DNA from: Pyrus communis
Taxonomy: Eukaryota; Streptophyta; Magnoliopsida; Rosales; Rosaceae
Direction of reading: 5' to 3'
DNA: 64,000 nt
NCBI RefSeq assembly: GCF_963583255.1
Contig: NC_084811.1
Span: forward strand, 12,108,088 to 12,172,087
The notes below the pieces were generated by a model. That model worked only from the letters and a program-made list of their open reading frames with translations, was not told where the DNA came from and did not search any database. Below are positions 9,832 through 58,960 of the stretch, in pieces. Made by a program: the position numbers and the translations under genes. Each line of letters begins with the position of its first letter. Positions within the stretch are counted from its first letter, which is position 1.

Positions 9832-10739
9832 TGTAGACATTGAAATTTTGGTGAAATGAATGTTGACCAATAATTAAAATTTCAACGCTCATGTGTCATA
9901 TAAATTTTACATGTAGTGTGTGACTCAACGAAAAATCGAGATAAATCAGAAAAGTCATCACATAAGACACGTGTCAATACCTGGCGAAAATGATTTATTT
10001 CATCTGATTATTTAAATCCAAAAATCAAGTTTTGGAATTCTATAATAGGAAGCCAAGGCATTCATGAATGGGAGGAATTGATATCACACCAAAACCTTGA
10101 AGCTTTGAAACTCTAAAGCCCTCAAGCAAATCCCGAATGATCAAGAAAGCTCTCTTCGTTCTTCGTCAAATCCCCTTTTAAGATCAAGCCTCGACGGCCC
10201 TTGAAGAACTTCCACCAACTCAAGATCAAGCCCCAACGGCCCTTTGGATCAACAACATCAACAAATCCACACATCCAACCGTTCTTCAGGATGAAGCCCA
10301 AAAGCCCTTGAAGATCCGCTTATCCATCAACTTTCAAGATCAAGCCCGACGACCCTTGAAGAAATCCGCACAACCATTATTCAAAGATCAAGCACCAACA
10401 GCCTTTGAAGAAACTCCCACCTGTTCATCCTAAGATCAAGCCCCAATTGCCTTTTGGATCAACAACTTCAAGATCAAGCCCAAAAGCCCTTGACGATCTG
10501 TTCATCCTTGTTCTTCAAGATCAAGCCCCGACGGCCCTTGAAAAAACTTCCAATTGTTTATCCAAGATTAAGCCTCGACAACCTTTAGATCAACAACACG
10601 TCAACAAACCAACATCTTACGAAGATTGAATCAGAGGACCAAATTACAAAGAGATTGTAACCCCAAAATCATTAAACACAAATATTACTTTGTACACGTG
10701 TTTTTGTCTCGTTCATCGTTAGGAATTTTCATGTTTACA
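9832..10739 (+). repeat. 3' LTR of the gag-only element
   Basis: 908 bp and collinear with 2234-3200, with the same AAGATCAAGCC/GACGGCCCTTGAAGAA tandem motif between about 10170 and 10570. It differs by substitutions and small indels. The right flank GTAAT matches the left flank of the element. Confidence 0.9.
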
Positions 10740-11343
10740 GTAATTCGATGCAATTTTGGTCGGAGGTTGGTACCTGAAATTGACGAAGGCTTCTTGTGAT
10801 TAATATGTGCAAGTTCACTTAGGATGAATACCACGTCTTAAGGGTTGTATGGTTTTTCAAAAGGTTTCACAAAGCTTAATGAGTTAGGCATGTTTAGATT
10901 TGATCCGAATACCACAAACGGGTTGCATGTTTGATATATGCTCTATGTTGGGGGTCCAAGTAGGCATATTTTAGGGAAACCTAACCTTCAAAATATGCAT
11001 GTGTAATTCATAAGTAATTGAAAGAACTACATATGATTGTTAAGGTAACGGCGGAACCCTAGACTTTTACAATTTAATTTTCAGAAACCGTTTCTTTTAG
11101 TTTATTTTATTTTGTCACTTTATTTAATTATTTTCTATTATTTGAAATCACAAAATCACCTTTTTCCAAAACTTTGTTTTAAGTCATTAATTAAGATTTG
11201 ATTTGATACAAATTAATCATTCTATTCTTAAGGAGAACGACCTTACTAGAGTCGATTATACTGCAATTACCTTGTACTCTTGCAAGTATTTATAGTGTTT
11301 TTATCCCTACTTTTGCAGGTGGTAAAATCCTTATCACCTTGCA

Positions 11344-11790: not shown

Positions 11791-12479
11791 TGCAAGGTTG
11801 TTGTCCCAAAGATTGTTTGGCTAATTTGTAATTAAATTAACTCTTAATTAATTATTAAAAAAAATTTATCAAAGATTTGAGATTTTTGAATTTTTAAAGA
11901 TTAAATTAACAATAAAAGAAATCTAAAAATTTGGAAAATAATGGCAGCAAAGAAGAAAACGATTTTAAATTAAAATAATTATGAGAAAGACTAGGGTTTA
12001 ACCATCATCGTTAGTCTTGGCAAACGGGTCGTGCTTGTCATGTTCGTGTCATTTTCGTGTAACACATGTTATCTTAACGGGTCATGTCGTGTCACACCCG
12101 TTATCTTAATGGATCCTTAACAGGTTGGGTCAATTTACCCAACGGGTAAAGTGACTCGACCCGCTATGACCCGTTAAGAAAAATGTATTTTTTTTCTTAA
12201 ATTTGCACGTACCACACATTGCCACATAAATATTACTTCAAAACACATTTGTCGTTTAAGTACTATATCTACATTTGAAAATAAGAGCCTAATAAACAAA
12301 CATCCATACAATACTAGCCTATTACAAAATATTAAATGTGCAAGGATATGCAAAATGAAAGTGATTTTTTTTTCAAGGTTGTGAAGCCTTTCTCAAAAGT
12401 TTAAACCTTGCCAATGGAACTCAAAGCTTGCATGTTATTCCTTTTACAAAATCCTCAATTTTCATCGATCATCATGACA

Positions 12480-15475
12480 TAAGATTTTGTGGTATCCACT
12501 AGTGTAAATATTTTAAATTGAAGATCAAATTCATTCACTGTATTCATATAGGGTCAATGAATATAGCTGTAAAAAAATCATCAAAATCAGAGTTAAAATA
12601 ACCGTTAAAGTGTGATTTTTCGTTGATAACCGTTGAAAAGTTTTTTTCCTGTTACTTGACCTCTGAATGTTTGTTTTTTGCAATTTTTAGCGTATGCGAT
12701 CTTGAAGCATATACAAACAAGCTTGAAGGTTGGATCGTTGAAATTATTTTCGTAGAATACGTATCCCATCAAAATGATAGATTCACCAACACTTTTATTT
12801 ATACTTTCATTAAGTATAACATAAGATTTTGTGGTATCCACTAGGGTAAATATTTTAAATTGAAGGTCGAATTCATTCATTCTATTCATATAGGGTCACG
12901 GAGTGTAGCTGTAAAAAATGATCAAAATTAGAGTTAAAATAACCGTTAAATCGTGACTTTTCGTTGATAACCGTCAAAAAGTTTTGTTCCATTATTTGAT
13001 CTCTAAATGTTTGTTTTTTGCAATTTTTGGCATATGCGATCTCGAAGTATATACAAACATGTTTGACGATTGGATCGTTGAAACTATTTTCGTAGAATGC
13101 GTATCCCATCAAAACAATAGATTCACTAACACTTAAGAGTTTATTCATACTTTCATTAAGTATAACATAAGATTTTGTGGTATCTACTAGTGTAAATATA
13201 AATTCAAGATCAAGTTCATTCATTGTATTCATATAGGGTCAAGGAGTGTAGCTGTAAAAAAATCATCAAAATCGGAGTTAAAATAACCGTTAAATCGTGC
13301 TTTTTCATTGATAACCGTCGAAAAGTTTTGTCCCTTTACTTGATCTCTGAATGTTTTTTTTTTTGCAATTTTTAGCGTATGTGATCTCGTAGCATATACA
13401 AACAAGTTTGATGGTTGGATCGTTGAAATTAATTTCGTAGAATGCGTATCCCATCAAAACGATAGATTCACTAACACTTAAGAGTTTATTATTCATACTT
13501 TCATTAAGTATAACATAAGATTTTGTAGTATCCATTAGTGTAAATAATTTAAATTACAGATCGAGTTCATTCATTGTATTCATATAGGGTCAAAGAGTGT
13601 AGCTATAAAAAATCAACAAAATCGGTGTTAAAATAACCGTTAAATCGTGATTTTTTGTTGATAACCATCAAAAAGTTTTGTCTTGTTACTTGATCTCTGA
13701 ATGTTTAATTCTTGCAATTTTTGGCGTATACGATCTTGAAGTATATACAAACATGTTTAACGGTTGCATCGTTGAAACTAGTTTCGCAGAATGCGTATCA
13801 AAACAATAGATTCACTAACACTTAAGAGTTTATTCTTACTTTCATTATGTATAACATAAGATTTTGTGGTATCCACTAGTGTAAATATTTTAAATTGAAG
13901 ATCGAGTTAATTCAATATATTCGTATAGGGTCAAGGAATGTAGCTGTAAAAAATCATCAAAATTAGAGTTAAAATAACTGTTAAATCATAATTTTTTATT
14001 GATAACCGTCGAAAAGTTTTCTCCCGTTACTTGATCTTTGAATGTTTGTTTTTTGCAATTTTTGGCATATGCGATCTCGAAGTATAAACAAACATGTTTG
14101 ACGATTGGATCGTTGAAACTAGTTTCGTAGAATGCGTATCTCATCAAAACAATAGATTCACTAACACTTACGAGTTTGTTTATACTTTCATTAAGTATAA
14201 CATAAGATTTTGTGGTATCCACTAGTGTAAATATTTTAAATTGAAGATCAAGTTCATTCATTGTATTCATATAGGGTCAAGGAGTGTAGCTGTAAAAAAT
14301 CATCAAAATCGATGTTAAAATAATCGTTAAATCGTGATTTTTCGTTGATAACTGTCGAAAAGTTTTGTCCCATTACTTGATCTTTGAATGTTTGTTTTTT
14401 TTGATTTTTAGCTTGCGATCTCAAAGCATATACAAGCAAATTTGACGGTTTGATCGTTGAAATTAGTTTTGTAGAATGCGTATCCCATCAAAATGATAAA
14501 TTCACTAACGCTTAAGAGTTTGTTCATACTTTCATTAAGTATAACATAAGATTTTGTGGTATCCACTAGTGTAAATATTTTAAATTGAAGATCGAGTTCA
14601 TTTATTATATTCATATAGGGTCAAGGAGTGTAGCTTTAAAAAATCATCAAAATCGGAGTTAAAATAACCGTTAAATTGTGATTTTTGGCGTATGCGATCT
14701 CGAAGCATATACAAACATGTTTGATGGTTGGATCGTTGATTTTGTAGAATGCATATCCCATCAAAACAATAGATTAACTAACACTTCAAAGTTTATTCAT
14801 ACTTTCATTAAGTATAACATAAGATTTTGTGGTATCCACTAGTGTAAATATTTTAAATTGAAGATAGAGTTCATTCATTATATTCGTATAGGGTCAAGGA
14901 GTGTAGCTGTAAAAAATCATCAAAATCAGAGTTAAAATAATCGTTAAATCGTGATTTTTTGTTAATAACCGTCGAAAAGTTTTGTCCCGTTACTTGATAT
15001 CTGAATGTGTTTTTTTTTTTTTTGTTGCAATTTTGGGCGTATGCAATCTCGAAGTATATACAAACAAGTTTGACGGTTGGATCGTTGAAACTAGTTTCGT
15101 AGAATGCGTATCCCATCAAAATAATAGATTCACTAACACTTAAGAGTTTATTCATACTTCCATTAAGTATAACATAAGATTTTGTGGTATCCACTAGTGT
15201 AAATATTTTAAATTGAAGATAGAGTTCATTCATTATATTCGTATAGGCTCAAGGAGTGTAGCTGTAAAAAAATCATCAAAATCGGAGTTAAAATAACCGT
15301 TAAATCGTGATTTTTCGTTGATAACCGTTGAAAAGTTTTGTCCCATTACTTGATCTCTGAAAGTTTGTTTTTTTGTGATTTTTTGCTGATGCGATCTCGA
15401 TGCATATACAAGCAAGTTTGACGGTTGGATCGTTCAAATTAGTTTCGTAGAATTTGTATCCCATCAAGTTCAATG
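12480..15475 (+). repeat. Tandem array of ~345-bp monomers, about 9 copies
   Basis: The landmark GTGGTATCCACTAGTG recurs near 12491, 12833, 13178, 13527, 13868, 14212, 14559, 14831 and 15187. Spacings are 341-356, with one short unit of about 272. Other fixed blocks are CATATAGGGTCAAGGAGTG, AAAATAACCGTTAAATCGTG and GGTTGGATCGTTGAAA. Copies here share GTTGATAACCGTCGAAAAG and CACTAGTG, whereas the arrays at 48.7 and 53 kb have GTTTATAACCG and CACTTGTG. Minus-strand frames of up to 120 codons occur once per unit; I do not regard them as proven genes. Confidence 0.93.
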
Positions 15476-15489
15476 GTATGTGTATATAT

Positions 15490-15760
15490 ATATTGACACA
15501 CCCTGACAGAAATCAGAGCGTGACGGCCAGCACGCCCTGATTCCTGGTGTCGGAGCCAGCACAGTTCGATTCGGATTCCTAGTGGACTTTCCGGGTCAGG
15601 GTGTGTCATATATATATTTATTAAGTAGATTTAAATTTATTTATTTTGTATGTATAACATTTAAGAAATTGAATGGTATGTATATGTAAGCCGATGCAGT
15701 GGTCACCAATATTTAATATTTAATTTAATATATATATATATATATATATAATTATTATGA
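15490..15760. repeat. Insertion-like GC-richer block and AT microsatellite in the hAT tail
   Basis: Between two near-identical TGTATATATATAT / CATATATATATTTATTAAG stretches is a GC-richer block at 15498-15607. It begins GACACACCCTGACAG and ends CAGGGTGTGTC, which are inverted repeats of each other. This small block is absent from the tails of the other two copies, so it may be a short foldback insertion. An (AT)n tract follows at 15730-15750. Confidence 0.6.
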
Positions 15761-17119
15761 TTTTTAGGGGTATAAAATTGTTAAATTAATATATATATAA
15801 TTATTATAATATTTTTTTAGGGCTATAAATTATAAAATTAATATTTTGCTTATCTTAACAGCTGGTTATCGGGTTACCCGATAACGACCCGATTTGTTAT
15901 CGTGTCGACCCGAACACCTGTTAATTTCATGTCGTGTTGGTTATCGGGTCGTGTCAAGAATTGCCAAGCCTAGTCATCGTTAACAATCCTATGCAATTCT
16001 ACCAATTACTTATGAATTTTCATACATGTTTTGAAGGTTAGGTTTTCCTAATGCATATTTTCCTCGTGATGTTCAAGAGAAAACGTATATCTAACATGTA
16101 ATCCGTTTGTGATGTTCAGATCAAATATAAACATGCAAGACTCATTAAATTTTGTAAAAACCCTTTGCAAAACTATGCAACCTTTAAGAGCGTGATGGTC
16201 GCCTTAAGTGAATTTACAATTACTAATCACAAGAAGCGCTCCTCAATTTCAAGGTGACGCTCCAACAGAAATTGCATCAAATTACTTGTTTAATTACTCT
16301 AATGGTGGCCAATCAATAAGTCAATTAGATAGTTTATACCAATCATTAATAATTCAAAGCAAACATGCATCCATCCATAAGCAAATTAATAAAATCACAT
16401 ATTCATGCTAAGGCTTTTGGCCTAACCCTAGCAATAGAAATTAGTTATGCATACTCATAATAAATACTAGAGAAAATATTAAGAGAAAAAAAAATCGAAA
16501 ACACCTTAAAGTAAAAGTCTGAAATTCTTCAAGAACCCTTCTTTTCACCCACAAGAGCATAAAGGAACAAACCCCTTATTTATATTACATATGCATTTCA
16601 ATTATCCCTAGTAAAAGTCTTAGGTTTTGACTAGAAAACCAAATAATAATAAAATAAACTAGAAATAAAAGTCCAATTAGGCTAGGAGAATCTGCACTGC
16701 AACTGTTCAGCCAGGTTTTAGCCCTAGAACTCCTCCAAATCAGGTCCATGATAGCTTGTTTTAACGATTAGAGCAATCTGAACACATCTCCGCAAGGAGT
16801 CGAACCCAAAATAGGTCATCTTGGGCTCCAAAACTTGCAATCAAGCCCAAAACGTCACTTTTCCACCACCGCGCATTGCTCTTTTATTCCATCGTCAGAA
16901 AATAACCGCTTAATGGAAAAATCTGATATTTTGAACGATCAAGCTCAACAACTCATGAACGTCCTCCAATTGGAATTACTCCAAAATTTATCCATTTGAT
17001 CACGTTTAGCCCCAGAGAAAGTCGAAAGTTCTATATTGAAAATACACTTCAAAGTATCAAAATTCTTCTAAAATAATAACCAAAATAAATAAGATTATGG
17101 TAAAGTATGTAACTCATCA

Positions 17120-33789: not shown

Positions 33790-35176
33790 TGTTGACCCTA
33801 AAAATTACAAAGCTACGTGGCGCGCAGGCTGAGTAATTAATAAGCTAACTAAGTCATTCGGTTGAACGCGGGGCGTGCCAACTCGTCAGCCGAGCTCGGC
33901 CGAGGAGTAAAATTTGTTGATGTTGCATTAAGCACGTTGCTGACTTCTTTATCTGGCGACTGCGGCCGAGGAAGGAACAAATCTCGGCCTTCGGATTCTC
34001 GAGCTAAAAATAAGGCTGCTGGTTTTGCGAAGTTCACAAATCGTCGGTGCCAAATTCGGTCACAGTGATTATATTCGTGAGAGTATAAGCACGTCGAATC
34101 GATACTAGATTGTACAGACACAAGTATTCAAAGGCGATGTATGTCTTGATGATGAATGTGGTTCGGCCGTGAAAATGCCGAACTCTGAAACTCACTTGTG
34201 AGTATTTAATCATAAAATCACTCGGCGTTCAGTGCGCCGAATGTCGTAACTCGTAACACCTTACTTCGCCGAGAAGGCTAATAAGATGACCTCTGCCAAT
34301 AAGGATTCAGAAACCATTCTCGACCGAGACTTGGATAGGTAACCAGTCGACCTCGACGCAGTGCTGTTTATCCAAACTGAAGGTGTTCCTCGGTCGGCTG
34401 ATTCTACAGCAACAGTGCTGTTTATCCAAACTGAAGGTGTTCGTCGATTGCATTCACAGTGTTGTTTATCCAAACTGAAGATGTGTCAGCGGGAAAAAAG
34501 AAAATAAAAAATTTCAAGATGTTTGAGAGGTTTTGCGTAGGGCAGTTGTGTATTGACTTGGAGGTCCCTTTTATCGTTGCCACTGCCTCTATTTATAGAT
34601 TTTGTAATGCTTAACCACTGAAATAAAGTATTCCAGTTCCATTCTAACTCTCAGCGTCTATATATTATGATAAAGAACCTTTTTGATAATATCCCTCAAA
34701 GTCAAGATTCCTCGGGTCAATGTCGTGTGCTCTTTTCATCTTTGTAGAACACCAATCTAATCCAAAGATTGGTTATAATATTTAAATGTCGTGGATCTCT
34801 ATCATCCAAATTCCATGTACCAATGACATTCCAATTTGCATCATTATCTTGACTTCAACTTTATCCTAAAACCATGCATCTTGACTATTCAAACCTCATT
34901 TTAATGCACCATCATCATGCTACTGCTCAATCTGATAATAGGAGTCCCAAGTCCATTTGAATTGTACTACTTGCTCGGAAACTTACTTTGCATCTTATTA
35001 TCCTGTATAAGAAAATATCAAGATAATTTGTTAAACGATAATTATTATGATAAAAATCATAATATTATCTGTCAATAATAATAAAATTATCTTCACTTTT
35101 CATCCGACGGTTGAGAGCTATGCTCACTCAATGGCCTTGATTGCACGGGCCGATGGTGTAAATTTGGGTCTAAACA
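33790..35176 (-). repeat. 3' LTR of the CCAGC-flanked element
   Basis: 1387 bp, aligned throughout with 36976-38371, with scattered substitutions and small indels. It includes three copies of the GTGCTGTTTATCCAAACTGA motif at 34359-34480. Confidence 0.92.
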
Positions 35177-36317: not shown

Positions 36318-36929
36318 CTAAGCCGAATAGGATTGCTCCATATCGGCTTTATCACCAATAATCATATCGATTGGCGTGGTTTGTTCAACTAAAACCATGA
36401 ATTGGTCTTGTTCATCATTGGAACATTTTTCTGACGGATTATTTTCTAAGTCAATTTTTGGCTTAGAAACTTGAACATTTTCTTCTAGGCCTACCACACT
36501 TTCAGCCTCAACTGAAAAAATAGGTGGCCTAGTCTCGACTGAAAAAATAGGTGGCCTTTGTTCTTCGGCCAAATTAACAATTTTTTTAGGCTGATGTCTA
36601 ATTACGGCCGAAGCGGAAAATTGCCCCCCGATCTTTCCAACCAACCATTCCTCAAATGGAATCGATTTGTAGTCGAAAACGTAAGGAAAATATTCTCCAT
36701 CTAGCCAGGCATTAAATCGAGCCCTGTCTTCATTTACCCATTGCTATTGCAGGGTAACAGGAGCTTTTATTCTCAACATGTAAGCAAATGACTTTTGCAT
36801 CTTTGTATGGCCACGAAGAATATTTTCCACTTCCAAAGATTTTTTTCGTTCCTCATTGTGTTTTTTCAATTCCTCTAGGAGCTCGTACAATTGGCTACGT
36901 GGAGCCGAATTGGAATCTTGATATATCAT
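36318..36929 (-). CDS. Unrecognised ORF of the non-autonomous LTR element, one internal stop
   Basis: ATG 36929 (MIYQDSNSAPRSQLYELLEE) begins 25 bp after the primer-binding region. The frame runs to a stop at 36318-36320 and is broken once by TAG at 36746-36744 after APVTLQ. It starts with a charged probable coiled coil (LLEELKKHNEERKKSLEVEN). A central block NEDRARFNAWLDGEYFPYVFDYKSIP-type sequence spans the TAG. The tail is acidic with a tandem RPPIFSVET/RPPIFSVEA repeat. It has no zinc knuckle, protease or RT. It sits where gag would be. Function unknown; one stop in 204 codons suggests it was coding until recently. Confidence 0.55.
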
Positions 36930-36975: not shown

Positions 36976-38371
36976 TGTTGACCCTAAAAATTGCAAAACA
37001 CAAAGCCTACGTGGCGTGCAGGCAGAATAATTAATTAGCTAACTACTTCATTCGGCTGAATGCAGGGCATGCCAACTCGTCGGCTGAGCTCGACCGAGGA
37101 GTAAATTTTTTTGATGTTGCGTTAAGCACGTTGCTGACTTCTTTATCTTGCGACTGCGGCCGAGGAAGGAACAAATCTCGGCCTTTGGATTCTCGAGCCT
37201 GAAGACAAGGCTACTAGTTCTACGAAGTTCACAAATCGTCGGCGCCGAATTCGGTCACAGTGATTATATTCATGAGAGCATAAGCACGTTTAATCGACAC
37301 CAAATTGTACGGACACAAGTATTCAAAGGTAATGTATGTCTTGATGGTGAATGTGGTTTGGCCGTCAGAATGCCGAACTTTGAAACTCACTTGTGAGTAT
37401 CCAATCATAAAATCACTCGGCATTCAATGCGCCGAATGTCGTAACTCGTAACACCTTACTTCGTCGAGAAGGCTAATAAGATGACCTCTGCCAATAAGGA
37501 TTCGGAAACCCTTCTTGACCGAGATTTGGATAGGTAACCAGTTGGCCTCGACGCAGTGCTGTTTATCCAAACTGAAGGTACTCCTCGGTCGGCTGATTCT
37601 ACAATAACAATGTTGTTTATCCAAATTGAGGGTGTTCACCAGTTGTCTTCACAGTGCTGTTTATCCAAACTGAAGATGTGTCGGCGGGGAAAAAGAAAAT
37701 AAAAAATCTCAAGATGTTTGAGTGGTTTTGCATAGGGCAGTTATGTGTTGACTTGGATGTCCTTTTTGTCGTTGCCACTGCCTTTATTTATAGATTTTGT
37801 AATGCTCAGCCATTGAAATAAATTATTCCAATTCCATTCTAACTCTCAGTGTCCATATATTGTGATAAAGAACCTTTTTGATAATATCCCTCAAAGTCAA
37901 GATTTCTTGGGTCAATGTCATGTGCTCCTTTCATCTTTGCAGAACACCAATCTAATCCAAAGATTGGTTATAATATTTAAATGTCGTGGATCTCTGTCAT
38001 CCAAATTCCATGTACCAATGACATTTCAATTTGCATCATTATCTTGACTTCAACATTATCCCAAAACCATGCATCTTGACTATTCAAACCTCATCTTAAT
38101 ACACCATCACCATGCTGCTGCTCAATCTAATAATAGGAGTCCTAAGTCCATTTGAATTGTACTGCTTGCTCGGAAACTTACTTTGCATCTTATTATCCCG
38201 TATAAGAAAATATCAATATAATTTGTTAAACGATAATTATTATGATAAAAATCATAATATTATCTTTCAATAATAATAAAATTATCTTCATTTTTCATCT
38301 GACGGTTAAGAGCTATGCTCACTCAATGGTCTTGATTGCATGGGTCGATGGTGTAAATTTGGGTCCAAACA
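36976..38371 (-). repeat. 5' LTR of the CCAGC-flanked element
   Basis: 1396 bp. On the minus strand it ends AGGGTCAACA and is followed by the primer-binding site. It is the partner of 33790-35176. Confidence 0.92.
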
Positions 38372-45990: not shown

Positions 45991-46754
45991 TTATCACAAT
46001 CTCCATGGATGAACCTTTGTTTTCAATTAGGATGACCTAGTCTGTGATGCCCTTATTTTTATGATGATTTCCAAGTATTACGATTGTATGTCATATGGAT
46101 GCGTATAAATTAACCACGGTAATGATCTACTATAGGTGAGAAACTCGTCATCGTGAATGAAAGAGAAAACCAAAATTTGAATACTTGTAACTGTTTTATC
46201 AAAATTGATTTCGAAATTTGGTAACCCACAAAAATAACTTTCAAATTTGAAGTTTCAGTTTTTATCCTTACTAAACAAGTTTTTAGCATACAGTTAGAAT
46301 TAAAAACTAATGCGGAATGATTATCAAACATGTATGGTATATATGCTAGGATTTTGTATGTATTTGATCTGGTAGTAAGAGCTAGAAAGCAGGTGAACAT
46401 TAGCCATGAACATTTGCCATACTTCGAAGAATCCAAAGGAAAAACGACGATTTCTGCAGAAGCAATGGTTGCAAGCTTTTTCTATTTTGTCAGTATTTTC
46501 GATGAGTCCACACAAAATTGTTGTTATTAGGATAGCACTATCCGACGTCTCATGAACGTTAGATAACTTTGTGCTTGTAGCCATATATGTCTGACCAACC
46601 GATCGAATATATATCAAGTTCCATTTATTCTTGGAAAAAAAAGAGAACAAAAAAAAAAAAACCCTCCTTGATTAATATTATGTTGATCATGTCCAAAATT
46701 AATATGATGTTGTTGATAAGTAACACATAAATAATATTATCCAATGCACATTAG
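45991..46754. other. Flank between copia and CACTA, nothing supported
   Basis: AT-rich. Minus-strand frames at 46110-46650 overlap one another and have no recognisable domain. I looked for the copia 5' LTR start here and did not find it. Confidence 0.4.
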
Positions 46755-46775
46755 AATCACTAGTACAAAAAATTA

Positions 46776-46823
46776 TTTGCGCGACCGAACTTTGTGCGAC
46801 AAAGACAAACTCGTCGCACAAGG
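46776..46823. repeat. CACTA left subterminal repeats
   Basis: Three TTGCGCGAC / TTGTGCGAC / CGTCGCACAA motifs in 48 bp. They continue at 48060-48290 beyond a nested element (CGTGCAAAG, GCACGAC, GCGCGACCAAATATTTC twice). Confidence 0.75.
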
Positions 46824-47999
46824 TAGACCTGGCAATATCTCACACGACCCGTTAACACGATACAAAAATAATAGGTTTCGGGCCCTTAACAAGTTTATGC
46901 GAGATGCATGTAACCCCGTTTTGACATATTAAGAAAAAAGTTATTTTGATGTTTCTAATTTTTTAAACTAATAAAAAAAAACTTTGTATTAATGTACTAA
47001 ATGTATATATTGTATATCATAATATGTATATAAACCCTATTGTATATAAACTTTGCATAGTCTATATGTATATATTGTATATCATAATATGTATTAATAT
47101 ACTATTATTCTATATAAATTTAAAAATATAGTATACAATAGGCAAAAGTGAGATTAAAAAATTGTAAAACACATTAAAAAAAAAAACAAAAAAACTTACA
47201 AGTGCGAAAAATGTTAAAAAATATGCAAATACTCGTGATCGCATCCTTTACGCTTTGAGGATGGTTACATCGTCGTTTGAATGATTAAAACCATACAAAG
47301 CCTCATGAATAGTATTTTTCATGAATAGTATTTTAAGGGAGTTCAAAATAAACCAATATCATTTCCCTTGGTGATTGATGAACATTGAAGGTTTTTATTG
47401 TAAAAAACATGCAAGGTTTCCGCAACCTTGAAACACAACTCCTTTCATTTTGCATATCCTTGAACATTTGGTCTTTTGTAGTAATGTACTAATTTTTTTT
47501 CATTAGACTCTTATTCTGGGGTATGTAATGTTGTTTTTATGTTATCATTTTGCATATCCTTGAACATTTGGTCTTTTTTTTATTTTATTTTATTTTTTAG
47601 GTGAACTTTGGTCTTTTGTAGTAACATACTAATATTTTTCATTAAACTCTTATTCTGGGGTATGTAATACTTAAAAGATAAATGTTGTTTTTTATGTTTT
47701 GAAGTAATATTTATGTTACAATGTGATATACATCTACAAATTTAGTATTATGTTTTCAATTTTTTGGGGCTCAAATTATGTTTTTCATTTTCATTATTTA
47801 CTGATTTAAAATATATTTTCCTTAACGGGTAGCTGGTCGGGTCATATTACTTGATAATATTAACATGTCAATTTCGGGTCAGGTCGGGTCATATTACTTG
47901 TTTATTTTGACGGGGGTTACACAACATGATCCGTTAAGATATCGGGTATGTCGTGAAAATGAAACGAACACGGAAAACAAGACACGAATGTCATGTGTA
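46824..47999 (-). mobile_element. Diverged relative of the TAGGCCTGGCAA hAT family, no satellite
   Basis: The left end TAGACCTGGCAATATCTC and following CACGACCCG match the right terminus of the family in reverse. The right end, read on the minus strand, has TTCGTGTC..GTTCGTTTCATTTTC..ATCTTAACGG, matching the family's left terminus. Flanks GCACAAGG and GTGCAAGG agree at 6 of 8. It is about 1.18 kb, AT-rich inside, with a 100-bp direct duplication near 47440-47660 (CATATCCTTGAACATTTGGTCTTTT, shortened here to its ends CATATCCTTG and TGGTC). There is no monomer array. Confidence 0.6.
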
Positions 48000-48059
48000 G
48001 TGCAAGGGTGTTTAGAGAGATGAAATCAAAACACCGTTGCTCAATTTCGCCGCACTGTA

Positions 48060-48290
48060 ACTGAAGTACCAAAAAACTGTCTTGACGGACAGTGATGTCG
48101 TGCAAAGAGTCATTGCACGACAAAGAAAGGACCCCGTCGTGCAAAGTTTGGCAAAAAAACGCAGGTAAGACAATATTTGGCCCCAAACAAATGCGCGACC
48201 AAATATTTCCTGCAAAAATCCAGCGCGACCAAATATTTCTTGCAAAAATCTTGAGCGACAATGCTTCGTTGCACAAGGGTAAACATTTAT
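48060..48290. repeat. CACTA subterminal repeats, continued
   Basis: Multiple GTCGTGCAAAG, TGCACGAC, GCGCGACCAAATATTTC and TGAGCGACAATGC motifs alternate in orientation. Confidence 0.75.
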
Positions 48291-48689
48291 GATAGGCGGT
48301 CAACCTTTTAGTGAAAGAATATTTACTCTAGGCCTGGCAAACGGGTTGTGTCTGTCGTGTTCGTGTCGTTTTCGTGTAACACCTGTTATCTTAACGGGTC
48401 GTGTCGTGTCACACCCGTTATCTTAACGGGTCCTTAACAGGTCGTGTCACTTTACCCAACGGGTAAAGTGACCCGACCCGTTATGACCCGTTAAGAAAAA
48501 AATATATTTTTTTACAATTTGCACATACCACACATTGCGACATAAATATTACTTGAAAACATTAAAACATTTCTCGTTCAAGTACTATATCTACACTCGA
48601 AAATGAAAGCCTAATAAAAAAAATAATACATACACTACTAATCTATTACAAATATTAAATGTATATAATTATTAATATTATAGTTGATT

Positions 48690-50345
48690 CATACTTTTAT
48701 TAAGTATATAAATTCTACTAGTGTAAATATTTTAAATTGAAGATCAAATTCATTCTTTGTATTCATATAGGGTCAAGGAGTGTAGCTGTTAAAATTCATC
48801 AAAATCAGAGTTAAAATAACCGTTAAATCTTGATTTTTCGTTTATAACCGTCGAAAAGCTTTGTCCCGTTACTTGATCTCTGAATGTTTTTTTTTTTGTG
48901 ATTTTTTGCTGATGTGATCTCCAAGTATATACAAACAATTTTGACGGTTTGGATCGTTGAAATTAGTTTTGGAGAATTCGTAAAACGATAGATTGACTAA
49001 CACTTAGAGTTTATTTATACTTTCATTAAGTATAACATAAGATTTTGTGGTATCCACTTGTGTAAATATTTTAAATTGAAGATCGAATTCATTCATTGTA
49101 TTCATATAGGGTCAAGGAGTGTAGTTATAAAAAATCATCAAAATCGGAGTTAAAATAACCGTTAAATCGTGATTTTTCGTTTATAACCGTTGAAAAGCTT
49201 TGTCCCGTTACTTGATCTCTGAATGTTTTTTTTTTTGTGATTTTTTGCTGATGTGATCTCCAAGCATATACAAACAATTTTGACGGTTTGGATCGTTGAA
49301 ATTAGTTTTGGAGAATTCGTAAAACGATAGATTGACTAACACTTAGAGTTTATTTATACTTTCATTAAGTATAACATAAGATTTTGTGGTATCCACTTGT
49401 GTAAATATTTTAAATTGAAGATCGAATTCATTCATTATATTCATATAGGGTCAAGGAGTGTAGTTATAAAAAATCATCAAAATCGGAGTTAAAATAACCG
49501 TTAAATCGTGATTTTTCGTTTATAACCGTTGAAAAGCTTTGTCCCGTTACTTGATCTTTGAATGTTTTTTTTTTGTGATTTTTTGCTGATGTGATCTCCA
49601 AGCATATACAAACAATTTTGACGGTTTGGATCGTTGAAATTAGTTTTGGAGAATTCGTAAAACGATAGATTGACTAACACTTAGAGTTTATTTATACTTT
49701 TATTAAGTATAACATAAGATTTTGTGGTATCCACTTGTGTAAATATTTTAAATTGAAGATCGAATTCATTCATTATATTCATATAGGGTCAAGGAGTGTA
49801 GTTATAAAAAAATCATCAAAATCGGAGTTAAAATAACTATTAAATCGTGATTTTTCGTTTATAACCGTTGAAAAGCTTTGTCCCGTTACTTGATCTCTGA
49901 ATGTTTTTTTTTTGTGATGTTTAGCTGATGTGATCTCCAAGCATATACAAACAATTTTGACGGTTTGGATCGTTGAAATTAGTTTTGGAGAATTCGTAAA
50001 ACGATAGATTGACTAACACTTAGAGTTTATTTATACTTTCATTAAGTATAACAAAAGATTTTGTGGTATCCACTTGTGTAAATATTTTAAATTGAAGATC
50101 GAATTCATTCATTGTATTCATATAGGGTCAAGGAGTGTAGTTATATAAAATCATCAAAATCAGAGTTAAAATAACCGTTAAATCGTGATTTTTCGTTTAT
50201 AACCATTGAAAAGCTTTGTCCGGTTACTTGATCTCTGAATGTTTATTTTTTTATGATTTTTTGTTGATGTGATCTCAAAGCATATACAAACACGTTTGAC
50301 GGTTGGGATCGTTGAAATTAGTTTTGGAGAATTCGTATGCAATCA
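48690..50345 (+). repeat. Tandem array of ~339-bp monomers, about 5 copies
   Basis: Landmarks GTGGTATCCACTTGTG are at about 49049, 49389, 49726 and 50065, plus a degenerate first unit near 48718. Full units share a private deletion: GAATTCGTAAAACGATAG where the array at 53-57 kb has a TATCCCAACA-type insert. Units are nearly identical to each other, more so than to either other array. Confidence 0.93.
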
Positions 50346-51207
50346 ATCAAGTTCCGTGTGTGTGTGTGTATATATATATATTTATTAAGTAGATTTAAAT
50401 CTATTTATTTTGTACGTATAAATTATAATTGACTGGTACACGGAATAGTACATACATCACGTGTCACGTGTGTCATTATAAAAATAGTGAGATATGTCAT
50501 GACAGTCATGTGTGTGATAAAAAGTTAATAACTTAAAAAAAAAAAAAAAAAAATTTCTCACCACTTCTATTAATTTTCATTTTTCCCTCTTTTTTTTGTT
50601 TCCTTTTCAACTTTTTCTTATCATTTTCACTTTTCCCTCCAACATCTTTCCCTAATTCCCTCACTTTGTTGTTTTATTTTCAACTTTTCTTAACATTTTC
50701 ATTTTCCCTCCATTGTTTTTTCAAAAAGGGCGGCAAGTTGGCAAATGCATGATCATGATTCATGCATATTAAATTATTAATTAATATGCATTATAGTTTT
50801 TATAAAATTTAATATATATATATATATATAATTAGTATAGATAGACTTAATATTTTGGGGGTATAATTATTATAGTATATATAATAATTATAATTATTAT
50901 AAATTTTATAGTTAATTTAATATATATATATATATATTTATTATATTTTTTAGGGGTATAAAATTGTAAAATTAATGTATATAATTATTACAGTATTTTT
51001 TTAGGGTTATAAAATTATAAAAATAATATTCTGCTTATCGTGTATCGTGTTTACCCACGTGTATACCCGACCCAACCCGTTATCTTAACAAGTGCTTATC
51101 GGGTTACCCGATAAGACCCGATTCGTTATCGTGTCGACCCAAACACCTGTTAATTTCGTGTCGTGTCGTGTCGGGTTATCGGGTCGTGTCAGAAATTGCC
51201 ATACCTA
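50346..51207. other. AT-rich tail of hAT copy 2
   Basis: A (GT)n(AT)n microsatellite near 50355-50382, an A tract at 50535-50553, CT-rich (CTTTTCAACTTTT-like) repeats at 50560-50710, then AT stretches. It is collinear with 57440-58360. Confidence 0.75.
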
Positions 51208-53089
51208 ATTTACTCTAGGGTTATGCGGGACGAAGATGTCGTCGCAAGATCCCTAAACTTGCTATATAATTGCAGTTTCGCTGTCCCTATTCTTCACCAT
51301 TCGTTTCGAAAATGATTGACTTGATTCAGATTATTATTTCAATTGTTGTTTGAATTTAAGTACGATGATCGAATCTAGTGCTCGTTCGTCAAAGAGAAGC
51401 GAGGGTGAAGGTTCCGGAAAAGGTAACACGCACTAAATTTTACGTGTTGTATAAATTAAATATTTAGCTAGATTATTTAAATTATATTTTGTTCGTAGAC
51501 AAGAAAAAGAAGAGAGCTGCGCCATGAGTCCAATGCATTTTTAGTGGAAGCCACTTCCGAATCACTACTGAAGAATTAAATGGAGTGGAGAAGTTAGATA
51601 TGCGCACTAGGCTTAGGTGCGACGTTGAGGCATTAGTGCGTAACAAATATGGTGTTGATTGGGAATCTTGGAGAGCTGTCCCCGAGAAGATAAAGACACA
51701 CTTGATCGATGAGTTAGAAGTACGTGCTAATTAATTAGTTAAATAATAATTATATTCGTTAAATATAATATATTAGATTCATTTATCATTTATTAATTTT
51801 TGCATAACAGTCTGACTGGGACATTAACAAAAGTGACCTAAATTTGATGAAGTGTATCGACAACATATTCAAGTTCTATTTCCGGGAGTGGAAGTTTGAT
51901 GCTGAACATGAGGCTGAACTGCAGCGAAAACCTGAACGACCACCGGTAGAGTAGAATAGTTTTTTCTTTTATTTTAGGGTAAATTACATTTTACCACCTC
52001 AGGTTTGGGGTCAATTGCAATCTCATACAACATCTTTAAATCATTTCAATCTCATACATTAATTATTATTTTATTTCAATTTCATACATCCGTTAGACAA
52101 TCTGTTAAGTTTGCCATTAAATAATGACACGACAAATAAATCCATATTTGTGCTGACGTGGCTATCAACTTTGCACTATGTGGTCAAAAACAAATAAAAA
52201 AACTATTAATTAATAACAAAAATAAAACAAGAATTAAAAAAAGTACATCTTCTTCGTCCTATTTTCCGATGACAAAATGGAAGCAATCGAAGTCAATCCC
52301 TAGAAAATCAACGGAAGAGCCTTGAAATCTCTCTAGTAAAAAACAATCAACATCTTCTCGATAATATAAAAACTTAAATCCAGTTGTTACTATTTTTTTG
52401 GGATCGCGAAAGAGAAGAGTTAGTTTAGGGTTTGCTGTAATTGCAAATCTTCCAAGTCCCCAACCAATTCGAGCCGTACCTCGAGAGAACACGATGGAGG
52501 TGGCTAGGCCTGGCAAACGGGTCGTGTCGTGTCACACCCGTTATCTTAACGGGTCCTTAACAGGTCGGGTCACTTTACCCAACGGGTAAAGTGACCCGAC
52601 CCATTCTGACCCGTTAAGAAAAAAATATATATTTTTTTAAATTTGCACATATCACACATTGCCACATAAATATTACTTCAAAACATTAAAACATTTGTCG
52701 TTTAAGTACTATATCTACATTCGAAAATAAGAGCCTAATAAAAAAATAATACATTCACTACTAATCTATTACAAATATTAAATATGCAAGGATATGCAAA
52801 ATGAAAGAGTTTTTGTTTTCAAGATTGTAAGTCTTTCTCAAAAGTTTACACCTCTATCTACAAAATCTTCAATTTACATCGATCATCATGAAATTGTATT
52901 GAAACTTTGGCTTCATCTATTGCCTTGAAGAGTTATGTTGAAGATGTTTTCAGTAAGGTTTTCCACGTCAGAACTCTCTTCCGCATAAACTAAGTATAGA
53001 AAAACCAAACATTAAAAATCATTCAAATTATGAGAAGTTTAGTTTACCAAAATAATTATGAAAAGAAATAAAACAATAATACTATACCA

Positions 53090-56000
53090 TATAAAAATAT
53101 ATTAAAATAACCGTTAAATCGTGATTTTTCGTATATAACCGTCGAAAAGCTTTGTTCCATTCCTTGATCTCTGAATGTTTGTTTTTTGTGATTTTTTGTT
53201 GATGTGATCTCTAAGCATATACAAACAAGTTTGATGGTTTGGATCGTTGAAATTAGTTTTGGAGAATTCGTATCCCAACAAAACGATAGATTGACTAACA
53301 CTTAGAGTTTATTTATACTTTCATTAAGTACAACATAAGATTTTGTGGTATCCACTTGTGTAAATATTTTAAATTGAAGATCGAATTCATTCATTGTATT
53401 CATATAGGGTCAAGGATTGTACCTGTAAAAAATCATCAAAATCAGAGTTAAAATAACCGTTAGATCGTGATTTTTCGTTTATAACCGTCGAAAAGTTTTG
53501 TCCCGTTACTTGATCTCTGAATGTTTGTTTTTTGTAAATTTTTGTTAATGTGATCTCCAAGCATATACAAACAAGTTTGACGGTTTGGATCGTTGAAATT
53601 AGTTTTGGAGAATTCGTATCCCAACAAAACGATAGATTAACTAATACTTAGAGTTTATTTATACTTTCATTAAGTACAACATAAGATTTTGTGGTATCCA
53701 CTTGTGTAAATATTTTAAATTGAAGATCGAATTCATTCATTGTATTCATATAGGGTCAAGGAGTGTACCTGTAAAAAAATCATCAAAATCGGAGTTAAAA
53801 TAACCGTTAAATCGTGATTTTTCGTTTATAACCGTCGAAAAGGTTTGTCCCGTTACTTGATCTCTGAATGTTTTTTTTTTGTGATTTTTTGTTGATGTGA
53901 TCTCCAAGCATATACAAACAAGTTTGACGGTTTGGATCGTTGAAATTAGTTTTGGAGAATTCGTATCCCATCAAAACAATAGATTGACTAACACTTAAGA
54001 GTTTATTTACACTTTCATCAAGTATAACATAAGATTTTGTGGTATCCACTTGTGTAAATATTTTAAATTGAATATCGAATTCATTCATTGTATTCATATA
54101 GGGTCAAGGAGTGTACTTGTAAAAAATCATCAAAATCAGAGTTAAAATAACCGTTAAATCACGATTTTTTGTTTATAACCGTCGAAAAGCTTTATCCTGT
54201 TACTTGATCTCTGAATGTTTGTTTTTTGTGATTTTTTACTGATGTGATCTCCAAGCATATACAAACAAGTTTGATGGTTTGGATCGTTGAAATTAGTTTT
54301 GGAGAATTCGTATCCCATCAAAACGATAGATTGACTAACACTTAGAGTTTATTTATACTTTCATTAGGTATAACATAAGATTTTGTGGTATCCACTTGTG
54401 TAAATATTTTAAATTGAAGATCGAATTCATTCATTGTATTCATATAGGGTCAAGGAATGTACCTGTAAAAAATCATCAAAATCGGAGTTAAAATAACCGT
54501 TAAATCATGATTTTTCGTTTATAACTGTCGAAAAGCTTTTTCCCGTTACTTGATCTCTGAATGTTTGTTTTTTCTGATTTTTTTTTTGATGTGATCTCCA
54601 AGCATATACAAACAAGTTTGACGGTTTGGATCGTTGAAATTAGTTTTGGAGAATTCGTATCCCAACAAAACAATAGATTGACTAACACTTAGAGTTTATT
54701 TATACTTTCATTAAGTAGAACATAAGATTTTGTGGTATCCACTTGTGTAAATATTTTAAATTGAAGATCGAATTCATTCATTGTATTCATATAGGGTCAA
54801 GGAATGTACTTGTAAAGAATCATCAAAATCGGAGTTAAAATAACCGTTAAATCGTGATTTTTTGTTTATAACCGTCGAAAAGTTTTGTCCCGTTACTTGA
54901 TCTCTGAATGTTTATTTTTTGTGATTTTTTACTGATGTGATCTCCAAGCATATACAAACAAGTTTGATGGTTTGGATCGTTGAAATTAGTTTTGGAGAAT
55001 TCGTATCCCATCAAAACGATAGATTGACTAACACTTAGAGTTTATTTATACTTTCATTAGGTATAACATAAGATTTTGTGGTATCCACTTGTGTAAATAT
55101 TTTAAATTGAAGATCGAATTCATTCATTGTATTCATATAGGGTCAAGGAATGTACCTGTAAAAAATCATCAAAATCGGAGTTAAAATAACCGTTAAATCA
55201 TGATTTTTCATTTATAATCGTCGAAAAGGTTTGTCCCGTTACTTGATCTCTGAATGCTTATTTTTTGTGATTTTTTGTTAATGTGATCTTCAAGCATATA
55301 CAAACAAGTTTGACTGTTTGGATCGTTGAAATTAGTTTTAGAGAATTCGTATCCCATCAAAACGATAGATTGACTAACACTTAGAGTTTATTTATACTTT
55401 CATTAAGTATAACATAAGATTTTGTGGTATCCACTTGTGTAAATATTTTAAATTGAAGATCGAATTCATTCATTGTATTCATATAGGGTCAAGGAATGTA
55501 CTTGTAAAGAATCATCAAAATCGGAGTTAAAATAACCGTTAAATCGTGATTTTTTGTTTATAACCGTCGAAAAGTTTTGTCCCGTTACTTGATCTCTGAA
55601 TGTTTGTTTTTTGTGATTTTTTGTTGATGTGATCTCCAAGCATATACAAACAAGTTTGACGGTTTGGATCGTTGAAATTAGTTTTGGAGAATTCGTATCC
55701 CAACAAAACGATAGATTAACTAACACTTAGAGTTTATTTATACTTTAATTAAGTAGAACAATAGATTTTGTGGTATTCACTTGTGTAAATATTTTAAATT
55801 GAAGATTGAATTCATTCATTGTATTCATATAGGGTCAAGGAATGTACCTGTAAAAAATCATCAAAATCGAAGTTAAAATAACCGTTAAATCGTAATTTTT
55901 TGTTTATAACCGTCGAAATGCTTTGTCCCGTTACTTGATCTCTGAATGTTTGTTTTTTGTGTTTTTTGTTAATGTGATCTCCAAGCATATACAAACAAGT

Positions 56001-57440
56001 TTGACGGTTTGGATCGTTGAAATTAGTTTTGGAGAATTCGTATCCCAACAAAACGATAGATTGATTAACACTTAACAGTTTATTTATACTTTCATTAAGT
56101 ATAACATAAGATTTTGTGGTATCCACTTGTGTAAATATTTTAAATTGAAGATCGAATTCATTCATTGTATTCATATAGGGTCAAGAAATGTACCTGTAAA
56201 AAATCATCAAAATCGGAGTTAAAATAACCGTTAAATCGTGATTTTTCGTTTATAACCGTCGAAAAGCTTTTTCCCGTTACTTGATCTCTGAATGTTTGTT
56301 TTTTCTGATTTTTTTTTTTTGATCTGATCTCCAAGCATATACAAACAAGTTTGACGGTTTGGATCATTGAAATTAGTTTTGGAGAATTCGTATCCCAACA
56401 AAACGATAGATTGACTAACACTTAGAGTTTATTTATACTTTCATTAAGTAGAACATAAGATTTTGTGGTATCCACTTGTGTAAATATTTTAAATTGAATA
56501 TCGTATTCATTCATTGTATTCATATAGGGTCAAGGAGTGTACCTGTAAAAAATCATCAAAATCAGAGTTAAAATAACCGTTAGATCGTGATTTTTTGTTT
56601 ATAACCGTCGAAAAGGTTTGTCCCGTTACTTGATCTCTGAAAGCTTGTTTTTTGTGATTTTTTGTTAATGTGATCTTCAAGCATATAAAAACAAGTTTGA
56701 CTGTTTGGATCGTTGAAATTAGTTTTGGAGAATTCGTATCCCATCAAAACGATAGATTGACTAACACTTAGAGTTTATTTATACTTTCATTAAGTATAAC
56801 ATAAGATTTTGTGGTATCCACTTGTGTAAATATTTTAAATTGAAGATCGAATTCATTCATTGTATTCATATAGGGTCAAGGAGTGTACCTGTCAAAAATC
56901 ATCAAAATTGGAGTTAAAATAACCGTTAGATCGTGATTTTTCGTTTATAACCGTCGAAAAGGTTTGTCCTGTTACTTGATCTTTGAATGTTTGTTTTTTG
57001 TGATTTTTTGCTGATGTGATCTGAAAGCATATACAAACAAGTTTGATGGTTGGGATCGTTGAAATTAGTTTAAGAGAATTCGTATCCCATAAAAACAATA
57101 GATTAACTAACGCTTAGAGTTTATTTATACTTTCATCAAGTATAACATAAGATTTTGTAGTATCCACTTGTGTAAATATTTTAAATTGAAGATCAAATTC
57201 ATTCATTGTATTCATATAGGATCAAGGAGAGTAGCTATAAAAAATCATCAAAATTGAAGTTAAAATAACCGTTAAATCGTGATTTTTCGTTTATAAGCGT
57301 CGAAAAGTTTTGTCACGTTACTTGATCTCTGAATGTTTGTTTTTTGCGATTTTTTGCTGATGTGATCTCAAAGCATATACAAACAAGTTTGATTGTTGGG
57401 ATCGTTCAAATTAGTTTTGAAGAATTCGTATCCCATCAAG
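53090..57440 (+). repeat. Tandem array of ~346-bp monomers, about 12 copies
   Basis: Landmarks GTGGTATCCACTTGTG are near 53347, 53690, 54041, 54387, 54733, 55080, 55426, 55771, 56119, 56467, 56812 and 57159. Spacing is 343-351 bp, remarkably regular. Units share GAATTCGTATCCCA.CAAAACGATAG. Some sub-variants repeat at alternate positions (for example GGAATGTACCTG against GGAATGTACTTG, and CATTAGGTATAAC), hinting at multi-unit duplication. Confidence 0.95.
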
Positions 57441-57457
57441 TTCCAATGGTGTGTGTG

Positions 57458-57492
<35 letters not shown>

Positions 57493-58360
57493 TTATTAAG
57501 TAGATTTAAATCTATTTATTTTGTACGTATAATTGACTGGTACACGGAGTAGTATATCACATGTATCATTATAAAAATTGTGAGATATGTCATATGTGTG
57601 ATAAAAAGTTAATAACTTAAAAAAATAAATAAATAAATTTCTCACCACTTCTATTAATTTTCATTTTTCCCTCTTTTTTTTTTTTTTTCCTTTTCAACTT
57701 TTCTTATAATTTTCACTTTTTCCTAATTGCCTTACTTTTTTGTTTCATTTTCAACTTTTCTTATAATTTTCACTTTTCCCTAATTGCCTCACTTTTTTGT
57801 TTCATTTTCAACTTTTCTTATCATTTTCATTTTCCCTCTATTTTTCTTCAAAAAAGGCGGCAGGAATGGAATGGAATCAAATCAATGGATGCATCATGCA
57901 TATTAATTAATAATTATTATAGTTTTTATAAAATTTAATTCAAAATTAAATATATATATATATATATATAATTATATAATTATTATAGATAGTTAATATT
58001 TTGGGGGTATAATTATTATAGTATATATAATTATTATAATTATTATAGACTTTATAGTTAATTTAATATATATATATATATATATATATTTATTATAGTT
58101 TTTAGGGGTATAAAATTGTTAAATTAATGTATATAATTATTACAGCATTTTTTTTGGGGTTATAAAATTATAAAAATAATATTCTGCTTATCGTGTATCA
58201 TGTTACCCATGTGTATACCCGAATCAAACCGTTATCTTAACAGGTGCTTATCGGGTTACCCGATAACGACCTGATTCGTTATCGTGTCGACCTGAGCACC
58301 TATTAATTTCGTGTCGTATCGTGTCGGGTTATCGGATCGTGTCAGGAATTGCCAGGGCTA
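57441..58360. other. AT-rich tail of hAT copy 3
   Basis: (TG)n(TA)n at 57445-57491, then three direct copies of TTTCAACTTTTCTTAT..TTTTCA-type CT-rich repeat (57690-57835), then AT tracts. It is collinear with the tail of copy 2. Confidence 0.75.
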
Positions 58361-58368
58361 GAGGTGGC

Positions 58369-58960
58369 AAGAGATGTGAGTTCTGGGTTCATTTGAGACG
58401 CGGTGGGAATGGAAATGGTAGAGAGGCGAGAATCCTAAGGCCTCTGCTCTCTCTCGTTTGCTCAGCTCACCCAACTCTCTGTGTAAATCAGAGCGGCGGT
58501 GCTTTGTGCAGTGGTGGTTTCGTCAGATCGCGAGAAGGGCAGGGTGGTGCGGGCAGCAGTAGGTGATGGTGATGTAGGTCTGGATAGAACTGAAGGTGCA
58601 GTTATTTTCACACGACGATTGTTGTGGTTCGTGGTGGTGGTTCTGGCAGAGTGCAGCAGAGGTCGATGAAGAATCTGGTGGCGGCGGTTTAAGCAAAGAG
58701 CAGAACATAGGTGAACACCCAAACTTCGTCCGACGAATCTGGTGGTGGTTCATGCAGAGAGCGCAACAGAGGTGAACTCACAATTTGAAATGTGAATTCA
58801 GTGAATTTGGGGTTTGGGTTGGATTCGGTAAATCTGGGGGTTGGATTCATCCAAATCGAAGAGGACTGGGCTGGCGTCGCCGTCGAAGAGAGGGTTAGCA
58901 GGGCGAGGCATTGGAGCTGCATCGAAATCCAATCATGGATTCTGATACGTTTCAGAGTTA
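58369..58960. other. GC-richer segment inside the Mutator-like element
   Basis: This is markedly richer in G+C than the flanking sequence, with GGTGGTGGTT and CAGAG.GCAACAGAGGTGAA near-repeats (58640-58780). Open frames exist on both strands but none shows a domain I recognise. The left part of the same captured segment is 52240-52504. It could derive from a 5' gene region. Confidence 0.4.

Follow-up and report, generated by a model that had tools for sequence, protein, structure and literature searches.

The window analysed, a 64,000-nucleotide stretch of Pyrus communis DNA, includes three elements (E1, E2 and E3) that are bounded by ends of the TAGNNNTGGCAA type and carry head-to-tail arrays of one monomer of ~346 bp (Table 1). 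The coordinates and 8 bp target duplications given in a first-pass annotation were exact, the duplications (left/right) being ATCATCGT/GTCATCGT for E1, ATTTACTC/ATTTACTC for E2 and GAGGTGGC/GAGGTGGC for E3. In window-wide counts, which include the element itself, an equally good duplication at the same spacing was found at 52 of 60023 positions for E1, 11 of 61105 for E2 and 1 of 58128 for E3. The ends pair as short inverted ends at 11/12 (E1), 10/12 (E2) and 11/12 (E3) bases, and the right arms of E1 and E2 and of E1 and E3 are 82–83 % alike, compared with 88–89 % for the monomers. A related empty site for E1 was found at 10739–11244 (minus strand), where the joined E1 flanks align across the insertion point (72 % over 531 bases). 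Two features absent from the first-pass annotation are E4 and the 115 bp element inside E1; the duplication of E4 is matched or bettered at 544 of 62808 window positions. A CACTAGTACAAAAAA end lies at 46758, within the region containing E4 and E2.

Table 1. Elements, arrays and related features in the window
Feature	Position	Strand	Description
E1	12012..15972	+	3961 bp hAT element with array; left-junction class A; target duplication 7/8
E1 array	12474..15467	+	8.7 copies, monomers 90 % alike
Element nested in E1 right arm	15494..15608	.	115 bp, perfect 14 bp inverted ends
E4	46824..47999	-	Diverged array-less relative, 1176 bp, 6/8 target duplication
E2	48329..51207	+	2879 bp hAT element with array; class B; target duplication 8/8
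E2 array	48678..50346	+	4.8 copies, monomers 98 % alike
E3	52505..58360	+	5856 bp hAT element with array; class C; target duplication 8/8
E3 left-arm piece adjoining array	52859..53101	+	
E3 array	53102..57439	+	12.5 copies, monomers 95 % alike

The window supplied 23 full monomers together with partial edge copies, and elsewhere in it the monomer consensus matched only stretches of 13–23 bases (E up to 1). A coding signal in the monomer ORF was not supported (mean minor-allele frequencies by phase of 0.053, 0.047 and 0.062). The protein database contains 279 relatives of the ORF product and, among the 120 of these listed, one is named by organism (Malus domestica) and 22 cover more than one monomer. 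For another ORF of the window, every relative that carries an organism name comes from Malus. Examination of the monomer for AA/TT periodicity and inverted repeats revealed nothing notable. An exact 34-base piece of the monomer was absent from the viral and bacterial/archaeal collections, the monomer had no match among plasmids, the left-end pattern was absent from the viral collection, and Rfam returned nothing in 46500–58600 at the gathering threshold.

When the 487 Mb genome was searched, 196 exact copies of the left-end 18-mer were found (control, 0), and allowing up to three mismatches there were 486 left and 485 right ends (controls, 0). All 20 exact left 18-mer sites on one contig, C1, were inspected and an array was present at 19 of them. 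Of the 20 loci, 17 are complete elements flanked by 8 bp duplications (13 perfect and four at 7/8), and such agreement occurred in only 1 of 756 pairs when duplications were compared between different elements. In a monomer-anchored sample (9 of 39 best-hit clusters, taken from the matches listed), eight of the nine clusters lay inside complete elements. Among the 32 arrays in the retrieved stretches, which were mostly picked via ends or best hits, 24 sit between element ends flanked by target duplications and eight lie outside complete elements. Array size across the elements ranges from 1.1 to 17.3 copies.

The superfamily assignment made in the first-pass annotation was settled by one array-bearing member, L011, which has the same exact left end and belongs to the family with 8 bp duplications, because it holds a hAT transposase gene (PF14372, 4.8e-26; PF05699 in two frames, 3.2e-17 and 1.6e-5). 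The left arm of E3 (positions 12–586) and the left part of L011 are 90 % alike, and the monomer array in L011 is separate from the transposase ORFs. A member with a hAT transposase gene does exist, but its reading frame is broken. Pfam searches of ten frames (six of E4 and four of the E3 left arm) and of ten window ORFs detected no hAT domain. In the hAT end consensus the second base is A and the fifth is G, a tendency rather than a defining feature. Base 2 is A in all the ends compared, but base 5 is C at 28/28 left ends, either C or T at 28/28 right ends, and G in 0/8 of the ends of E1–E4. The absence of G at base 5 might point to another superfamily with 8 bp duplications (P, Merlin or Mutator-like), though this is highly improbable given that the hAT domains are in an element with the same left end and array, unless that piece is a nested insertion.

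In 26 of 27 elements the right arm joins the array at position 217 of the monomer, and the left junctions fall into classes at 266/270 (seven elements), 238 (seven) and 38/242 (eleven), with two others. Distances between arms correlate with distances between monomers for both the left arm (r 0.53, reached by 3/5000 shuffles) and the right arm (r 0.52, 7/5000) in 26 elements, but the correlation between left-arm and right-arm distances is only 0.27, a value that 355/5000 shuffles reach. In one pair, L010 and L023, eight internal monomers are collinear, with similarities of 0.94–0.96 on the diagonal versus 0.84–0.93 off it (z 4.8, 0/300 shuffles), and 400-base flanks of the two elements do not match. 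Because eight monomers are shared in order at unrelated sites, the array can transpose as a block, and the proposal that the array travels as part of the element is upheld by this pair as well as by the complete C1 loci. The collinearity test used an order-preserving alignment from which edge monomers were excluded; an earlier position-by-position comparison that included them gave small differences (0.003–0.0125, 0/500 shuffles). Collinearity beyond that of shuffles (≤3/300) was seen in only 2/15, 0/6 and 9/45 same-class pairs and, therefore, many arrays have been reworked. We regard it as established that the elements are bounded insertions with a fixed right junction and inherited left-junction classes, and that arrays were copied as blocks in some pairs.

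If the element had brought only one or two monomers, with each array growing locally, then arrays would not be inherited. The window monomers do group by element (0/2000 label shuffles as strong), all four full E2 monomers carry an 8 bp deletion that the other 19 lack (in a single E1 monomer, 5 bp are deleted at the same site), and copy number varies widely within a single class (3.0 to 17.3 in class 238), all of which would fit local growth. However, eight distinct monomers occur in the same order in L010 and L023 at unrelated sites, and monomer divergence in class A is equal within elements (9–11 %) and between them (10.4 %); we regard local growth as an unlikely explanation overall. Assembled array lengths may be wrong, as is sometimes the case, and an assembly artefact or local segmental duplication might be invoked, but this is barely credible for 28 elements that are spread over ten contigs and have differing duplications. 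Comparison of their 56 flanks of 400 bases gave five matches, one being between the left and right flanks of L011 and none between L010 and L023.

The case for the converse, that most arrays genome-wide lie between such ends, is weaker. Strict matching, which undercounts, placed an element end at 13 of the 31 monomer clusters on C1, leaving 18 without one, and some arrays do lack ends. L028 has both ends but its duplication does not match, and L041, the only one retrieved of five systematic draws, has no ends. L015+ and L039- hold diverged arrays (78–83 %) without arms of the hAT family, and a single such monomer lies at the end of the L027+ stretch. The left flanks of L027+ and L039- are alike and, going by this sequence similarity, may represent a second carrier. 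A generic end search around L015+, L037 and L041 returned only weak or low-complexity candidates; one of these, at L041, has an 8/8 duplication.

The diverged arrays without family arms, the shared flank and the 18 clusters without an end are also consistent with the monomer being an independent satellite captured by the hAT family and by other elements, the element copies being only one of its locations. We consider this possible but doubtful, as the right junction is identical in 26/27 elements and no long free array was seen in the 31 C1 clusters or the retrieved stretches. Since the junction is identical, capture into the hAT family was probably a single event. Arrays of tens of kb were likewise not seen in these clusters and stretches, the largest array having 17.3 monomers and the largest of the 31 listed clusters 12 exact cores across 3.7 kb. 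No array in the sequences examined exceeds about 6 kb and, therefore, growth into large or centromeric satellites, also raised in the first-pass annotation, is unsupported here.

The account that we consider very probable is of a large P. communis hAT family, with TAGNNNTGGCAA ends and 8 bp duplications, in which the array is inherited, moved as a block and later resized. Points against it are the many same-class pairs without collinearity beyond that of shuffles, the low correlation between left-arm and right-arm distances, the arrays outside complete elements, the lower likeness of the right arms than of the monomers in the window, and the C or T at base 5 of the ends. Most of the examined members are array-bearing elements with arms seemingly too short for a transposase gene, laid out as a left arm, a head-to-tail array of the ~346 bp monomer and the fixed right junction. 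The array would have been in place before the copies spread, making it an inherited part of the element. A transposase presumably acts in trans on the ends, and the whole array may be carried as a block during transposition. Afterwards the array would gain or lose monomers, perhaps through unequal exchange or because the template slips during repair of the gap left by excision, and decayed element copies may leave arrays without ends. Extending this account, the satellite might have spread mainly as a hAT passenger with at least two unrelated carriers, orphan arrays arising as carriers decay, a suggestion that we put forward only tentatively.

Ends of the TAG..TGGC.AAACGGG type occur in nDart/Dart of rice, which the present family can be likened to by end type rather than by sequence comparison, and we know of no tandem array in nDart/Dart. 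These rice elements also belong to the hAT superfamily (PMC4585910). Tnat1 and Tnat2 of Arabidopsis (Noma and Ohtsubo 2000; PMC10794571) are, as described, likewise mobile elements of a plant with tandem repeats at their centre, but their monomers are 60 or 240 bp rather than ~346 bp. Tetris of Drosophila virilis (PMC4079207) is a non-autonomous DNA element with 8–10 bp duplications, internal tandem repeats of ~220 bp and an array-less relative with the same ends (DAIBAM), the counterpart here being E4. However, Tetris is a foldback element with the repeats inside its long inverted ends, and kb-size satellite-like arrays outside the element have been demonstrated for Tetris but not in the present analysis. 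The Cg_HINE Helentrons of the Pacific oyster (PMC7492417), non-autonomous elements found genome-wide, similarly have dispersed satellite-like arrays at their centre, but as Helentrons do not use cut-and-paste transposition with 8 bp duplications. Short arrays within dispersed elements are also known from Lathyrus sativus (PMC7004042), though there the carriers are LTR-retrotransposons and expansion to long arrays at the primary constrictions was demonstrated. In Chenopodium, the plant DNA transposon Jozin (CACTA) is tied to tandem monomers derived from transposase sequence (PMC7320549), whereas the monomer of the hAT family has no clear codon-position bias and is located away from the transposase ORFs.

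A literature search on hAT elements and satellite arrays recognised no hAT carrier, which is no proof of absence. In two candidate reports (PMC9659126 and PMC4736629) the mentions of hAT were reference titles and a transposase tree. Tandem arrays inside mobile elements of other groups are known, and to this set the present family adds a hAT carrier whose arrays can be copied as blocks. The finding addresses the old question of how related satellite arrays come to occupy scattered sites. With distinguishable monomers and target duplications, array blocks can be traced between insertion sites, and transfer, growth and loss become separable and testable for each copy, the genome having several hundred element ends. 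If the satellite did spread mainly as a hAT passenger, dispersed satellite DNA would arise as a by-product when elements transpose by cut and paste, and arrays would change in length meanwhile.

The three array-bearing elements E1, E2 and E3 proposed in the first-pass annotation were recovered in the window, which spans C9:12108088-12172087 in an assembly of 29 contigs and 487 Mb, with the boundaries and 8-bp target duplications it had reported. Between 10 and 11 of 12 bases pair in their inverted ends, and the motif CGGGT occurs 37 times in 1800 bp of termini (six pieces of 300 bp) versus once in the 10896 bp of the middles. CGTGTC is distributed similarly (19 versus 1), and AACGGG is also present away from the ends, with 15 copies in the middles. 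An inverted relative nearby matches the joined flanks of E1 across the insertion point, so E1 is an insertion; for the joined flanks of E2 and E3, no relative of the empty site was found within the window.

Features in the window, with observations on each
Feature	Position	Strand	Observation
E1	12012-15972	+	left-junction class A
E2	48329-51207	+	left-junction class B
E3	52505-58360	+	left-junction class C
E4	46824-47999	-	alignable arms, no monomer; target duplication 6/8, which by itself would not be convincing
Inverted relative of E1 flanks	10739-11244		aligns across the E1 insertion point
115-bp element in E1 right arm	15494-15608		perfect 14-bp inverted ends TGACACACCCTGAC; sits in a TA tract
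E3 target	58359-58371		TAGAGGTGGCAAG across the insertion edge; resembles the element's own end by coincidence
CACTA-like end	46758		CACTAGTACAAAAAATTATTTGCGCGACC, in the region of E4 and E2
Tandem arrays	5350-6508 and 6597-6892		about 155-160 bp; 22/44 bp
Direct 1.4-kb repeats	33790-35176 and 36976-38371		91 % alike, flanking the ORF below; with it, perhaps a non-autonomous LTR element
ORF	36321-36743	-	21 protein-database relatives; the 7 with a named organism are all Malus

The exact left-end 18-mer has 196 copies in the genome, and at up to three mismatches there are 486 left and 485 right ends; all controls gave 0. Among the 100 listed of the 196 exact left ends, 20 lie on contig C1, and 10 kb was fetched at each. 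This search, of the kind suggested in the first-pass annotation, yielded a complete element with a duplication at 17 of these 20 loci (13 perfect, 4 at 7/8). As the rule for calling an element complete allows at most one duplication mismatch, agreement inside called elements is by construction; equally good agreement between different elements was found in 1 of 756 pairs. Monomers were present at 19 of the 20 loci. L024 is a complete member of 1022 bp with no array, and L018, L026 and L028 carry a left arm and array and are not complete under the rule; L028 also has a right end, but its duplication does not match. On C1-C7, 40 of the 86 listed exact left ends have a correctly oriented right end at 0.7-9 kb, when paired with the 100 listed of 485 right ends (no more than one mismatch; reaching C7 24.7 Mb), and shifted controls gave 1, 0, 0 and 0.

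The assignment to the hAT superfamily is borne out by an array-bearing element of 6205 bp at locus L011, which has an exact left end, a 7/8 duplication and 3.0 monomers. Two open frames, 219 and 296 aa long, adjoin each other in it; the first matched no Pfam family and the second matched PF14372 (4.8e-26). PF05699 is matched by the region beyond these frames, in two different frames (3.2e-17 and 1.6e-5), so this member's hAT transposase gene is broken. In this element the transposase frames start on the side that faces the right arm, and the array sits between that arm and the transposase region. The E3 left arm (positions 12-586) is 90 % alike to the left part of this element and, on this sequence likeness, E3 is therefore best read as an internal-deletion relative.

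A 24-base core of the monomer has 2534 genome copies (control 0), and 100 listed places form 31 clusters on C1 (4.2-23.5 Mb), the largest of 12 cores spanning 3.7 kb. At 13 of the 31, at least one end from the strict lists was found (a left end at 11, a right end at 7 and both at 5), and shifted controls gave 0. This is an undercount, because strict matching misses ends that carry mutations, as E1's do, and it is no demonstration that the majority of arrays are bounded. The listed best matches to the monomer form 39 clusters beyond the window, 11 of them on C1-C7 (7 with a strict-list end, 4 with both); C4:15336695, one of the four lacking a strict-list end, nevertheless proved to be a complete element once fetched. 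Of the 39, nine were fetched, and eight of these are complete elements, seven with perfect duplications and one at 7/8. No ends are present at the ninth, L037, whose array is flanked on both sides by inverted inner right-arm pieces; this arrangement, about 8 monomers between inverted copies (89 %) of the piece, is foldback-like. Among the C1 clusters that have no exact left end, five were designated as a systematic draw, and the one fetched, L041, lacks ends; its right arm is reduced to about 100 bp and its monomers stand at 86-89 %. In the fetched stretches taken together, most of them chosen through ends or best hits, 24 of the 32 arrays sit in complete elements.

Diverged monomers (81-83 %) occur at L027 (plus) and L039 (minus), both truncated by the end of the fetched stretch, with left flanks that resemble each other (L027:9510-9756 and the matching L039 flank) and differ from the hAT arms. 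L015 (plus) has a five-piece array at 78 % and no known arm. These three places could reflect old free arrays, captured pieces or another family of carriers.

Among 28 complete elements (3 window, 17 C1 and 8 monomer-anchored), 27 contain arrays, with a median of 7.8 copies and a range from 1.1 to 17.3. In 26 of these 27, monomer position 217 marks the right junction; the exception is the element C13a, whose final match is only a short piece. Most left junctions belong to three classes, at positions 266/270 (7), 238 (7) and 38/242 (11), and the others are at 191 and 88. Across 26 elements, monomer distances correlate with those of the left arm (r 0.53, reached by 3 of 5000 shuffles) and of the right arm (r 0.52, reached by 7 of 5000). 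Left-arm and right-arm distances correlate more weakly with each other (r 0.27; 355 of 5000). An element's closest counterpart by arm is frequently not its closest by monomer. In the window, left-arm identities are 0.887 (E1/E2), 0.901 (E1/E3) and 0.946 (E2/E3), and right-arm identities are lower (0.827, 0.821 and 0.900). For the 23 full monomers cut from the window arrays (E1 8, E2 4, E3 11), identity is 0.902, 0.976 and 0.947 inside E1, E2 and E3, and 0.889 (E1/E2), 0.881 (E1/E3) and 0.945 (E2/E3) between them. As class A monomers differ by 9-11 % inside one element and by 10.4 % between elements, their diversity probably predates the insertions.

Eight internal monomers of L010 and L023 align in the same order (diagonal 0.94-0.96, elsewhere 0.84-0.93), which directly demonstrates block copying, and the flanks of the two elements do not match; the array does travel inside the transposon to unrelated sites, as had been proposed. 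Same-class pairs reached no more than 3 of 300 shuffles in 2/15 (A), 0/6 (B, with L027 counted here) and 9/45 (C) cases; among different-class pairs, 0/124 reached no more than 1 of 100 (mean z 0.11). All four full E2 monomers carry an 8-bp deletion that none of the other 19 monomers cut from the window has; a single one of those 19 lacks 5 bp at that site. Together with the block copying, the deletion common to E2 monomers indicates that blocks travel and that arrays are afterwards reworked. The left arm of L012 holds another tandem repeat (2.8 copies of 355 bp, with 98 % matches) within the first 1.85 kb of the element, and ORFs resembling this repeat also occur in L013 and L025.

Earlier papers document arrays inside or linked to Helentrons (PMC7492417), a foldback element (PMC4079207), LTR retrotransposons (PMC7004042), a Xenopus MITE (PMC9659126) and Arabidopsis Tnat elements (PMC10794571), and a link to arrays for CACTA (PMC7320549). 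No hAT carrier of satellite arrays was recognised in the literature searched, and the passages with hAT terms in PMC9659126 and PMC4736629 describe none.

The further step from carried arrays to large or centromeric satellites, envisaged in the first-pass annotation, gained no support in this analysis. The elements inserted with target duplication, blocks were copied in some pairs, array length later changed, and one member carries a hAT transposase. A transposase may act in trans on the element ends, array length would change through unequal exchange or slippage in gap repair, and decay of the ends would leave orphan arrays.
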